Assembly: GCA_020736575.1 (NCBI GenBank)
Contig: JAGPYM010000008.1
Span: 248,001-312,000, forward strand
Source: Thelonectria olida
Taxonomy: Eukaryota > Ascomycota > Sordariomycetes > Hypocreales > Nectriaceae
Direction of reading: 5' to 3'
DNA: 64,000 nucleotides
Positions 3,294-41,801 of this stretch are shown in pieces. The notes beneath the pieces were generated by a model. That model was not told where the DNA came from, made no database searches, and saw only the letters and a list, made by a program, of their open reading frames with translations. Every line of letters starts with the position of its first letter. Position 1 is the first letter of the stretch. Made by a program: the position numbers and the translations under genes.

Positions 3294-3375
3294 GCGTGAT
3301 TGGTTTAGTGGTAAAATTCTCCGTTGCCATCCGAGCAGCGTCGGGGAGCCCTGGGTTCGATTCCCAGATCACGCA
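3294..3375 (+). tRNA. tRNA-Gly(GCC), copy 1, with 11-nt intron
   Basis: The 7-bp acceptor stem GCGTGAT/ATCACGC is perfect and is followed by discriminator A. The T arm is CTGGG-TTCGATT-CCCAG (an intact B box) and the anticodon stem is CTCCG/CGGGG. Between the anticodon-stem halves lie 18 nt instead of 7, fitting a loop TTGCCA-N with anticodon GCC and an 11-nt intron after position 37. The mature length is 71 nt, as expected for tRNA-Gly. A pol III T-run follows at 3387. Confidence 0.93.
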
Positions 3376-3386
3376 CTGAACCTTTC

Positions 3387-3468: not shown

Positions 3469-3550
3469 GCGTGATTGGTTTAGTGGTAAAATTCTCCGTT
3501 GCCATTCGTGCAGCGTCGGGGAGCCCTGGGTTCGATTCCCAGATCACGCA
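3469..3550 (+). tRNA. tRNA-Gly(GCC), copy 2, with 11-nt intron
   Basis: It has the same mature sequence as copy 1 (acceptor, D, anticodon and T arms identical), starting 175 bp downstream in the same orientation. The only differences inside the gene are two bases in the 11-nt intron (tccgag versus ttcgtg at its start). The eight bases before the gene also resemble those before copy 1, so the pair looks like a local tandem duplication. Confidence 0.93.
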
Positions 3551-36261: not shown

Positions 36262-37494
36262 TTATGACTTTCCGACTTCTTCAGTATCTGGCTTTGGGAC
36301 TGTGCAATTGCTTTCAGCGCCCTTGGAACCATCTGTCTTTGTAACGTCATCATTGTCCTCCTCTGGTCCGTCTTCTTCCTTGTCTTCTTCCTCTTCGTCG
36401 TCGTCGCCGCCTTCCGCCCCGTTCTGCTTCCGTAGGTGACCTCCCTTCCGCTTAGGAATGATGCTGAGGAACGCCTCTCCCCAGCTCTCACACTCAAGCC
36501 ACTTGAGCATGATCTCGACGACGTGGTTCGTGGCAAGGACTTGTCGACTCTGCATCACCATGTACTGGCCGATGGGCAACCGCGCCGTCCGGATGCCGCG
36601 TTCCCGAGCCCGCTTGTAGCAGATGCCCTTCTCGCGGTTCTTGTCTACGAGCCCGCCAATGATGTAGCTCGTGTTGGGCTCAAGCCGGTCCAGCGTATAA
36701 GGGGAGTCGGATGATAGATACACGATGTCCTTGTATTCCTCGCAAGGCTCGGGCTCGGGCACAAGCAAGGGGAGAGGATCCGTTTCGTCACGGACCCAGG
36801 GGATCTTGTTATCGAGGCTTCTCTGTAGAGCCTCGGTCATGGTTCCGCCGTTGGTCTTCATGTTCTCCCGCGCCTTTTCCGCACACTCGATGAAATCGCC
36901 TTCGACGAACTCGATGCCCTTCCAGTTCTTGTGCTTGTCCTGGAGCACATCCCGGAACCGCTCTGCCAGCTTTCCATTCCAATCAGACACCCAGAGCTGC
37001 GTGCGGTACTTGGCCGTCTTGTTCTCCGAGTAGGACCTGGTGATCTGGCTGCCCAGGGAGATGAGCTCCTTGTTCATCATGCACTGCTCAAAGTCGCAGT
37101 CGAAGATGATGGAAACGGGGACGTTGATGGGGGCGGGCTTCCGCGGGGTGAGTGCGTAAGGGTCCAGGCCCTGGGCGACGAGTGCGGCCTTCTCCTCGCG
37201 CTTGCGGACTCTGCTGGCCTGGCGTTTCTCCTTGCGCACCTTGCGGCGATGGTCCGCGCCGTTCTCCCACTCTTGCTGTTTGCGCATGCGCTTCAGTGCG
37301 TTTTTGGATAGCGGTGCATGGGTTGGATATTCCGATGCTGCGGAACTAGCCTGGCCAGCAGCCGCGGCGTCATGACGCTGAGTTTCTGAAGGGTTATTCT
37401 CTTCTGGTTGTGGTTGTTGGGTGGAAGCTGTAACTTGTTCGAGTCCCTCCATGGGAGTTGGCTCAGAAACTTCGTTAGCTTGGACAGAGGCCAT
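36262..37494 (-). CDS. TRM10: tRNA (guanine(9)-N1)-methyltransferase
   Basis: Single-exon 410-residue protein. TRM10 methylates N1 of guanosine 9 in tRNAs using S-adenosylmethionine. A disordered N-terminus with LSKNALKRMRKQQEW and a basic KRQASR stretch leads to the SPOUT domain (about 125-345): IIFDCDFEQCMMNKELISLG, the SAM-binding region YLSSDSP and YIIGGLVDKNREKG, then KRARERGIRTARLPIGQYM and VLATNHVVEIMLKWLE. The C-terminus is an unusually long acidic Asp/Glu tail. The length and order fit fungal Trm10. Confidence 0.95.
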   Translation of the reverse strand: MASVQANEVSEPTPMEGLEQVTASTQQPQPEENNPSETQRHDAAAAGQASSAASEYPTHAPLSKNALKRMRKQQEWENGADHRRKVRKEKRQASRVRKREEKAALVAQGLDPYALTPRKPAPINVPVSIIFDCDFEQCMMNKELISLGSQITRSYSENKTAKYRTQLWVSDWNGKLAERFRDVLQDKHKNWKGIEFVEGDFIECAEKARENMKTNGGTMTEALQRSLDNKIPWVRDETDPLPLLVPEPEPCEEYKDIVYLSSDSPYTLDRLEPNTSYIIGGLVDKNREKGICYKRARERGIRTARLPIGQYMVMQSRQVLATNHVVEIMLKWLECESWGEAFLSIIPKRKGGHLRKQNGAEGGDDDEEEEDKEEDGPEEDNDDVTKTDGSKGAESNCTVPKPDTEEVGKS

Positions 37495-38090: not shown

Positions 38091-38890
38091 ATGGAACGCG
38101 GCTTTTCTGCTGAGAGCCACGAGGCTCACCACGATGGCGAGCAAGTTTACCAACCCTTCGATACCCTCAACGACGCCGCCAAGGCCGGTCTCGTCGGTGG
38201 TGCGTCTGGTCTCTTCATCGCCTCGATCCGAAATGCCCTGGCCAAGCGCAACATCGGCGCCCTGAGCGTCTTCACCCGCGGGGCTCCTATTATCGGTCTT
38301 GCCAGTATGAATCCCGACTCGACCGCGCCAATTGAGGCTTTGCGGTGCTAATTGGACCGTGTAGCCGCTGCTCCCACTGCCTACGTTTTCTTCTCGCGAA
38401 GCTTCATGAACCTCCGCGAAAAGGACGACGCCTGGGGCCCTGCCTTTGGTGGTTTTATGATGGGCGCTGTCCTCGGCCTTCCATGTACGATCCCTATAAA
38501 CCTCATTTCGATGGATATATGAATCTAACCTTGGAGCAGCGCGGCGAATGCCTGTCGTGGTGGGTCTTGGTTCTGGTATCGCTGCTTTCCAGGGTCTGTT
38601 CTACTACCTCGGTGGCCGATATGACACCTTCAGAAAGGAGGAGGATGAGTTTGCGCGCAAGGAGACTATCCGAAGGACAACCAGAGTACCAATTGAGCAG
38701 ACCGTCTCGGAGATTGGTGAGGGCCGAGGTAAGTCGCGCACCTGGCCATGGATCTACGACAGCATGATTTCCTAACCTCTGTGCAGGAATCCAACCCTCC
38801 GGATACGACGAGCGACGAGCCGAGAGACTCAAGGAGAAATATGGTGTCGAAATTAACCCTGTTACCGCCACCATTGAGGGTAGTCAATAA
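38091..38890 (+). CDS. Mitochondrial complex I membrane subunit, NDUFA11/B14.7 type
   Basis: Predicted 208-residue protein from exons 38091-38304, 38365-38484, 38540-38728 and 38787-38890. It resembles the fungal 21.3-kDa NADH:ubiquinone oxidoreductase subunit related to mammalian NDUFA11, which belongs to the Tim17-like fold. Four hydrophobic, glycine-rich segments are visible: AGLVGGASGLFIASI, a segment around IGLATAAPTAYVFF, FGGFMMGAVLGLP and VVVGLGSGIAAFQGLFYYLG. A charged C-terminal tail follows with ERLKEKYGVEINPV. No cleavable presequence is seen, as usual for the family. It is an accessory subunit of the inner-membrane arm. The snoRNA-bearing units begin about 160 bp after its stop codon on the same strand. 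Confidence 0.87.
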
Positions 38891-39098
38891 GCAGCATGAC
38901 GGACGGGCGAACGGGGATCAATCGATTGTACATAACTCTTCCGGGCGGGGAAGAGATGTTACACTAGACAATTGGAGTTTTGTTTGTTTCCATGTGAAGC
39001 TCTTGAACTTGTGCTAGCTCAGCTTGGACAGTTGTGCAGCTATCCGACAAGGTATGTGCGACCATCTTCCATTTACCCGTCTAACCACGCACCCATTC

Positions 39099-39189
39099 GT
39101 TCTATGATGATTTGAGCAGAGGCTGTTTATGATCTCCATGATTCAACGCTCACCAATTTTCTATCTATCTACATTTACTTCCTGAGAAC
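39099..39189 (+). ncRNA. Box C/D snoRNA candidate, copy 1
   Basis: C box ATGATGA at 39104-39110, D box CTGA at 39182-39185, and a closing stem GTTC/GAAC (39099-39102 with 39186-39189). Length is 91 nt. An internal CTGT followed by TATGATC (from 39123) could be D' and C'. It sits 47 nt after the donor and 65 nt before the acceptor of an intron-like segment, the usual placement of intronic C/D snoRNAs. I could not assign an rRNA target. Confidence 0.65.
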
Positions 39190-39368
39190 ACACCCCACAC
39201 ACATGCTTATGATGTTGGCTTTCCTGTGGCGCAATGTTGCTGACCGTTCTGCAGTCATAGTCTCGAATTGAATCACTGGTCACAATGGCTTCAAGCCTTG
39301 AGTACTGAATTGGTATGTATTATTCTCTTCCTTGGTTTTGCTACCTCCAATTTCACTCTCCGATCCCT

Positions 39369-39459
39369 GTTCCGTGATGATTTGAGCAGAGGCTGTTTAT
39401 GATCTTCATGATTCGACGCTCACTATTTTTCTATCTATCTACATTTACTCCCTGAGAAC
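39369..39459 (+). ncRNA. Box C/D snoRNA candidate, copy 2
   Basis: C box GTGATGA at 39374-39380, D box CTGA at 39452-39455, closing stem GTTC/GAAC extendable by T-A. Length 91 nt. It differs from copy 1 in a few positions (for example GATCTTCATG for GATCTCCATG), but both boxes and the stem are kept. Confidence 0.65.
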
Positions 39460-39640
39460 ACGCCCATCACGCACTGTCTTAACGTTGGTTTTTCTTTGGC
39501 GCAATGCTGACCATGCCAAGTAACAGTTTTTTTTTAGTTCGGTCACTGACCACAATGGCTCCAATATCTTGACTGGATTGGTATGTATATCATTTTCTGC
39601 CCTCGGTCTCTGACATGCCCACTTCCGATTCCCAACCCTC

Positions 39641-39733
39641 GTTCTATGATGATTTGAGCAGAGGCTGTTTATGATCTCCATGATTCGACGCTCACCAAAT
39701 TCTATCTATCAATCTACATCTTTTCCTGAGAAC
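39641..39733 (+). ncRNA. Box C/D snoRNA candidate, copy 3
   Basis: C box ATGATGA at 39646-39652, D box CTGA at 39726-39729, closing stem GTTC/GAAC (39641-39644 with 39730-39733). Length 93 nt. The first ~45 nt match the other copies; the stretch before the D box has diverged. Confidence 0.65.
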
Positions 39734-40000
39734 ACTTCTGACCATGACTTATTTTAATGACTTGACTTGTTTATTACAGGCCGCTGACGTACCTGAAGTT
39801 AGATGCCAGTCGAAGGCGATGTATCCAACGGGTCCCTTCAGGGTTTGCGATATATTTTTGGTGTTAGGCGACGCATCGCAGACAAGACGTGTGTGGAATT
39901 CGTGACAGCCACCACTTGGAGCCCGGCTTCCAGGCCGCAGCCGGGACGGAGTGCTCACGTGTGACAGTTCACACTGCAGCTCATTTGCTTCAAGAGGTTT

Positions 40001-40232: not shown

Positions 40233-41801
40233 TCAAATCTTGACAGGTTTGAACCCGACCTGGATGTAACGCGCCGCCAAAATTACAAAGACGCCGGCCA
40301 TCATGGTGCAGCCGCAGAACAACTGAAGTCCGAGGTAGTCGCCATTCTGTCTCCTAACAATGGCGCCACCGATGGGACTTCCAGTCAGGGCACCAAACGA
40401 CTGGATGGCAAAGGCAGTGCCCACGCGTGTGCCAATCTGGCGAATGTCGGAGATTTGGGCGATCAGAGTAGGCGCCAAACTAATGTAGCCGCCGGACGAG
40501 AAGCCAAAGATGATGGCGAAGACGAGGATGCCGGCGGTGGTGTCGACGGGGATCCAGACCGCCAGGCAGAAGATGGCCGAGACGAACATGATGAAGATCA
40601 TGACGTTGTATCGACCCAGCTTGTCAGCTATCAGGCCGGGGATGATGCGGCCGAAGATGCTCACGGCGTTGAGAATGGGCAGCAAGTAAGGCACGAGAGT
40701 CTGCGAGACGCCGGCGGCTTCGGCTTGCAAGATGACATAGTTGAAGGGCAGGAACATCCCCCACATGAAGAGGAAGAAGCCGGCAATGGTGACGGACATG
40801 CGCGGATCCTCGAGGCTGACGACGTACTCCATGAAGACAAAGGGCCTAGGCCGCGGGGGCAGCCGCGAGTGCACGGTGAGGCAGGCGATGGTCAGGAGGA
40901 ACAGGAACATGAAGGCCATGGTGCGCATCATCCAGGGGAAGCCGACGCTCTTGATCATCTTGTCCATCATAATGGGCAGGATGACGCCGCCGAGCGACGA
41001 CCCGGACACCATGATGCCGAAGGCGGCGGCGCGGCGCTTGAAGAACCACGTTACGAGGGATGACATGCACGCGTTGAAGACGGCGCTGGACCCGACGGAT
41101 GCGACGATGGCTTGCGAGAGGAAGAACTGGTAGTAGCTGGAGGACAGGGACACCATCATCAGGCCGAAGACGTAGGCGAGGGTGCCGCCGTAGAGGAGGT
41201 ATCGAGGGCCGTAGCTGTCGAAGATGCGGCCAAACTGTCACCGAGTCAGCACCTGTTCTTTTTCCTTCGCAAGAGGAAGTCGAGTGGAAGTTGGGCTTGG
41301 ACTTACAATGGCGCCGCAAAAGATCATAAAGAAGACCTGCACCGACATGATCCAGCTCACCGTCGAGCTGTCGTAGTGCCTCAACGGCCCGCCGACATAG
41401 TAGGCCTGGAACACTCCCACGCAGTTGACCAGGCCAAACGTGCAGAACAGCGCACACCAGCCGCCCAGCACGACGAGCCAGGCCTCGGTGCCGCCGTCGG
41501 GGAAGTCGGCGGGGGCCAAGCCCGGAGGCGGGCCGGCGGGCGGAGGGCCATCGGGCTTGTCTGGGGGAGCGAGGCCGGCGCGCTCGAGGTCGGCCTGCAC
41601 CGCGTTGGCGGGCTCGGGGTAGATGTTTGCGTCAGTTTCGTTGTTTTGCGAGGGGATGCGCTCCAGGGATTTGCGGTGGTGGTGCGATGTTGATGGGTCT
41701 GCGTAGGGCTGCTTTTCGTCGACGTCTTGGACTGTGGTGGGAGGTGGGATGGCCTTTTCGTTGACCGTGTCTGAGGACGATGAGGCTGTAGAACGAGGCA
41801 T
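40233..41801 (-). CDS. MFS transporter, monocarboxylate-transporter-like
   Basis: Predicted 498-residue protein from exons 41801-41307 and 41234-40233 with a 72-bp intron. A disordered, Pro-rich cytosolic N-terminus of about 100 residues precedes twelve predicted membrane helices. TM1 starts [20 protein letters not shown], followed by [11 protein letters not shown], the pattern of fungal MCT-type (MCH) members. The loop after TM2 has [14 protein letters not shown], a variant of the MFS A-motif. A second conserved loop is [20 protein letters not shown] between TM7 and TM8. Fungal MCH homologues include riboflavin carriers and many with unknown cargo, so the substrate is open. A plasma-membrane location is likely. 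Confidence 0.92.

Follow-up and report, generated by a model that had tools for sequence, protein, structure and literature searches.

Three short introns predicted in tandem within a 64-kb stretch of fungal DNA (the whole stretch analysed, hereafter the window) each carry one box C/D snoRNA, and all three snoRNAs bear the same D' guide (Table 1). The boxes, the terminal stem, the guide and the splice signals are found in three copies, with uneven conservation along them. Very probably the locus is real; it is also in a good state of preservation and open to a functional interpretation. In the mechanism we propose, a pol II transcript would cross 39.0–39.8 kb, and its three introns would be removed by splicing; after debranching, exonucleases would shorten them as far as the ends closed by GTTC/GAAC. 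This would yield three C/D snoRNAs with an identical D' guide, each entering a fibrillarin snoRNP that would 2'-O-methylate one 25S adenosine—the CD28/snoR33/U95 site. The three copies would go back to a unit of some 270 bp that was duplicated in tandem, and either dosage or redundancy may explain why all of them are kept. That the locus is transcribed and its introns spliced, that the RNAs are trimmed, and that they pair with rRNA (of assumed sequence) and guide its methylation is what we infer here. Judged from the DNA, this explanation as a whole—three snoRNAs from a host transcript, one D' guide, 25S methylation and tandem duplication—is in our view highly probable.

Table 1 Features of the snoRNA locus and its surroundings (window positions unless stated otherwise)
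Feature	Position	Strand	Details
Complex I B14.7/NUJM/NDUFA11-type gene	38091..38890	+	Upstream; three predicted introns; top-ranking PDB entry 7zm7 (chain J; E 2.9e-43)
Stretch between upstream stop codon and first donor	38891..39051	+	161 nt; either exon 1 of the host RNA or the upstream gene's 3' UTR
Predicted intron 1	39052..39254	+	Splice signals GTATGT...TGCAG; 203 nt
snoRNA copy 1	39099..39189	+	GTTC 39099; C box ATGATGA 39104-39110; D box CTGA 39182-39185; GAAC 39186
D' guide, copy 1	39118..39128	+	AGAGGCTGTTT; then D' box ATGA 39129-39132
Predicted exon 2 of host RNA	39255..39312	+	58 nt; splice-site inspection
Predicted intron 2	39313..39537	+	Splice signals, GTATGT donor; AG candidates 39520, 39526, 39537; 214 or 225 nt
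snoRNA copy 2	39369..39459	+	GTTC 39369; C box GTGATGA 39374-39380; D box CTGA 39452-39455; GAAC 39456
D' guide, copy 2	39388..39398	+	AGAGGCTGTTT; then D' box ATGA 39399-39402
Predicted exon 3 of host RNA	39538..39580	+	Start 39521 or 39527 with an earlier AG
Predicted intron 3	39581..39779	+	Splice signals GTATGT...TACAG; 199 nt
snoRNA copy 3	39641..39733	+	GTTC 39641; C box ATGATGA 39646-39652; D box CTGA 39726-39729; GAAC 39730
D' guide, copy 3	39660..39670	+	AGAGGCTGTTT; then D' box ATGA 39671-39674
25S-like 61-base piece	L004 1501-1561 (G000:C96:264565-264625)		No further match beside it

The snoRNAs are 91–93 nt long, lie one per predicted intron on the + strand and follow each other at spacings of 270 and 272. 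Their C boxes agree with RUGAUGA in all three copies, as do the D boxes with CTGA, and each copy is closed by the GTTC/GAAC terminal stem. The sequence-only reading of this DNA had claimed three paralogous box C/D snoRNAs, one per intron, in three units of ~270 bp; both claims hold, with boxes, stem and donors present in every copy. When both strands of the 64-kb window were scanned for RTGATGA followed 40 to about 110 nt later by CTGA, with a 4-bp Watson–Crick terminal stem, these three copies on the + strand were the only matches, and the − strand of the window gave no match to this combination of C box, D box and stem. Sixty first-order Markov sequences held a mean of 0.35 matches over both strands (maximum 3), and three matches within 800 nt on the + strand occurred in 0/60. 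A BLAST search with copy 1 against the assembly (52.5 Mb, 165 contigs) led to three places, all at this locus, among the best candidates scored. A search of the assembly for C box, guide and D' box in combination likewise recovers the same three copies and gives no match on the opposite strand. This combined pattern also occurs at five places in bacterial and archaeal genomes and at one in viral contigs; these matches were judged by eye from their surroundings to be chance, and a stricter version of the pattern had 0 matches in the viral contigs. The lone snoRNAs fold no better than shuffled sequences (166, 133 and 159 of 200 were as good for the three copies)—poor folding of the lone RNA is usual for C/D RNAs.

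That the locus is a chance assembly of motifs or a repeat of a non-snoRNA kind is set against several observations. Box C and box D are both short, and an Rfam search—a covariance-model search for C/D snoRNAs had been put forward as a check by the sequence-only reading—gave no family at the gathering score for this locus. The random expectation of 0.35 per window, the absence of three clustered matches from the random sequences, the conservation pattern described below and a guide common to a known C/D family nevertheless make this reading extremely improbable. A lax Rfam scan of 38900–39900 gave four matches, all at chance-level E, of which three are C/D families at copies 1 or 3. The top-scoring one, snoZ119 (RF00361), aligns end to end with 17.4 bits where the cut-off is 70; its E of 5.1 is slightly worse than that of an unrelated mir-2 match (4.5). 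We take RF00361 to be a plant family. It resembles the copies described here in bearing CAGAGGCUGUUU next to D', and its spacing to box C is near-equal, with one base fewer here. However, its D' box is CUGA while CAGAGGCUGUUU precedes AUGA in all three copies, and the remainder matches poorly and far under the cut-off.

The guide AGAGGCUGUUU stands before the D' box in every copy and suggests a target, which the sequence-only reading had left unnamed. Against a 25S segment of assumed sequence, the guide of all three copies would form 11 bp with one G-U at −17.8 kcal/mol; 0/2000 shuffles were as good, the segment tested having been picked for fitting the guide. Position 5 from D' faces an A in this segment. 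The target was placed by the 21-nt spacing of this A to a U further along the segment, which we take to be the snR62/U34 site. The same spacing separates Am1845—guided by CD28—from Um1866 in N. crassa (PMC2780460), and Am1871 from Um1892 in Arabidopsis, where excerpts of the source show these two in the same table rows as Am2815/Um2837, read here as the human column (PMC11542601). A placement of the target at yeast A2228 was rejected, as the published yeast sites did not all fit the assumed segment (wrong 25S part). Given the guide fit, the 21-nt spacing and a use of D' as in CD28, the three copies are most likely a triplicated fungal guide of the CD28/U95 type, as far as the assumed rRNA letters go.

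N. crassa CD28 is given in the available portion of its description as an intronic RNA of 78 nt that acts on 26S-Am1845 by D' and is listed with snoR33 and human U95 (PMC2780460). It agrees with the copies described here in the predicted site, the position of the guide at D' and the intronic location, but it is listed as one gene instead of three in tandem and is shorter than the 91–93 nt found here. Its second guide—at D, for Am1859, and not listed for snoR33/U95—is not evident in our copies. Inspection for such a D-adjacent guide for Am1859 showed that the bases before D differ among the copies and misfit the assumed rRNA letters. A pairing of the bases before the D box with 25S past the target (10 bp, copies 1 and 2) was discarded, 125, 121 and 89 of 500 shuffles being as good.

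Two patterns and one 172-base search brought up no 25S covering the target in the assembly, so that the target letters used here are assumed rather than read from this organism. The sole 25S-like stretch found there, 61 bases long and diverged (87% identity with the assumed yeast query), ends before the target; no Rfam family was called for it, and the 25S pattern had 0 matches in the viral contigs. A literature search with the guide and target letters gave no snoRNA paper by title among the matches listed. Methylation at the 25S adenosine equal to N. crassa A1845 looks optional: excerpts of the Arabidopsis source report Am1871 only in 21-day plants (PMC11542601), no mention of SnoR33, A1869, A1870 or A1871 was found in the accessible part of another Arabidopsis methylation paper (PMC8053127), and the N. 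crassa table gives no yeast counterpart for the CD28 site (PMC2780460).

The predicted introns span 199–225 nt, and their GTATGT donors, as well as the exon edges, match those of the sequence-only reading. A GC near 0.53, short introns with GTATGT donors and the PDB match of the upstream gene to a fungal complex I subunit together indicate a filamentous ascomycete. The CTGAC-type branch sites of that reading stand for introns 1 and 2 (39240 and 39507). For intron 3—with branch candidates at 39738, 39754 and 39762—the CTGAC at 39738 is far from the AG, and a TTGAC lies at 39762 instead. The acceptor of intron 2 is ambiguous, and with three possible AGs an alternative use of these acceptors appears plausible. 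The distance from donor to snoRNA is 47, 56 and 60 nt and that from snoRNA to acceptor 65, 67 or 78, and 46 nt for copies 1, 2 and 3, respectively. Splicing followed by debranching and trimming is the expected route for intronic C/D snoRNAs. In N. crassa, 45/55 C/D snoRNAs are intronic and lie mainly 41–60 nt from the donor, as stated in the available part of the survey (PMC2780460); the donor distances found here agree with this commonest range, in favour of the proposed explanation. The single U14 (SNORD14) match above the cut-off in the genome (L014 1501-1605; among the best 99 of 728 candidates, which were scored) starts 41 nt after a GTAAGT donor at L014 1460 and is probably intronic too.

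The three snoRNA cores are 84/91, 86/95 and 82/95 identical in pairwise comparison (86–92%), with spacers at 53–67% on the 5' side and 46–68% on the 3' side—in line with the earlier claim that boxes and stem were kept while the spacers diverged, to which the guide can be added. Only two of the six spacer comparisons are clearly above shuffles—the 5' side of copies 2 and 3 (z 4.5) and the 3' side of copies 1 and 2 (z 5.4–5.7)—and the other four have z 2.3 or less. In the three-way core alignment of 94 columns, 15 are variable, and 0/15 fall among the 33 columns of the stem, the C-box core, the guide, D' and D (hypergeometric P = 7.6e-4, these element columns having been picked after the alignment was inspected). 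At its first position box C is A or G depending on the copy, inside the RUGAUGA consensus. As conservation was judged from three paralogs of one genome only, a gene conversion limited to the core could also have kept the cores alike.

Exons 2 and 3 have a 22-nt stretch in common as well as the exon end with the donor (z 4.1–4.5), and part of the 5' flank is common to copies 2 and 3; copy 3 has the core in common with the other copies, but not their 3' spacer. This pattern fits an unequal duplication of a roughly 270-bp unit. The earlier proposal that a unit of exon plus snoRNA intron was copied twice is visible in exon 2 versus exon 3, but does not visibly extend to exon 1: the stretch before the first donor shows no homology with exons 2 and 3 (z 0.9 and 0.7, with the start of exon 3 some bases off). 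A search of the assembly with exon 2 found only exon 2 itself and missed the partly similar exon 3, which marks its low sensitivity. Most N. crassa snoRNA genes are singletons, which the survey, in its accessible part, links to RIP recognising duplications above about 400 bp (PMC2780460); against this background a triplication is mildly unusual, and single 270-bp units fall, by our own inference, below the RIP length. No report of a tandem fungal array of one snoRNA was found by title or abstract opening in a limited search.

It might also be that one or two copies are productive and the rest are decaying duplicates. Between its guide and its D box, copy 3 has 3 bases inserted and 1 deleted, and its 3' spacer is a different one; for intron 2, three AGs are candidates for the acceptor. 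All three copies nevertheless retain boxes, guide, stem and donor, and we regard such decay as unlikely. A stronger rival concerns the host. The sequence-only reading had described a dedicated host RNA without a protein frame. The latter part is borne out: with RNA ends assumed at 38891 and 40100, no ATG frame in the predicted spliced RNA exceeds 53 aa, and the one of that length falls entirely within the last exon; three predicted introns, each with a snoRNA, and no long ORF after splicing give this RNA the make-up of a UHG-like host. A dedicated host is less secure, with the first donor 161 nt past the stop codon of the complex I B14.7-type gene on the same strand, and this gene is a possible real source of the host transcript. 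The gene was recognised by its PDB match, presumably from Chaetomium thermophilum; two of its single-exon pieces had no Pfam match. The downstream neighbour, an MFS transporter frame ending at 40233, lies on the opposite strand.

The introns would in that case sit in the 3' UTR of the complex I gene, and splicing would free the snoRNAs and mark the mRNA for nonsense-mediated decay, with no separate host. The shared strand and the little room that 161 nt leave for a terminator and a promoter speak for this, as do N. crassa ACA10 and ACA16, which the available part of the survey places in 3' UTRs of protein genes (PMC2780460)—these are box H/ACA and not intronic C/D RNAs. On the other side, the same source gives the N. 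crassa C/D clusters I–V their own UHG-like hosts (PMC2780460), and neighbouring fungal genes can overlap, so that 161 nt is not decisive. Taken together, a 3'-UTR host is possible, though we consider it the less probable arrangement. A bolder version, in which each splicing event on a complex I mRNA with three such introns would make a guide RNA and send the mRNA to decay, the dose being raised by triplication in ~270-bp units under the roughly 400-bp RIP length, appears quite improbable; if true, the gene would by its very structure trade a respiratory-chain protein against ribosome modification. A hairpin-like inverted repeat CTCTTCC/GGAAGAG at window 38936-38955, past the complex I stop codon and before the first donor, was seen by eye; it is shorter than the minimum of the repeat search and could be part of a 3' end, or chance.

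For the tandem intronic snoRNAs proposed here, the arrangement is of a familiar kind, with intronic C/D snoRNAs in non-coding fungal hosts and vertebrate tandem paralogs of the same host already published. In N. crassa, the C/D clusters I–V belong to UHG-like hosts, of which two are alternatively spliced (PMC2780460), and across fungi, 323/460 analysed cluster snoRNAs are predicted to be intronic, with 83 introns verified (PMC3596301). A review states—contrary to the N. crassa data—that most fungal snoRNAs are mono-intergenic, and notes large tandem snoRNA arrays in mammals (PMC11028025). In chicken, almost all snoRNA paralogs are ascribed to tandem duplication inside one host gene, according to excerpts of that study (PMC2653536). 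Fungal UHG-like hosts (N. crassa clusters I–V; clusters I–III across fungi) resemble our locus in having one C/D snoRNA per intron, short exons and no long frame, but these clusters carry different snoRNAs, whereas here one snoRNA is repeated. The vertebrate cis-duplicated paralogs and the SNORD115/116 arrays share with our locus the repetition of paralogous snoRNAs in one host; in comparison, the array described here is far smaller (three), fungal and of a conventional predicted rRNA target.

What is gained is a snoRNA locus missed by Rfam thresholds for which a definite target can be predicted, and an example of a filamentous fungus that keeps a single guide in three tandem copies. It might serve as a clean test case for whether the extent of methylation at one rRNA site depends on copy number, and it also bears on whether units below the RIP length are the way in which such fungi duplicate snoRNA genes.

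Elsewhere in the window, two tRNA-Gly (GCC) genes lie close together on the + strand (3294-3376 and 3469-3550). A 410-aa frame on the − strand (36262-37494) contains a tRNA (guanine-1)-methyltransferase domain (PF01746, E 1.3e-24) and is presumably TRM10.
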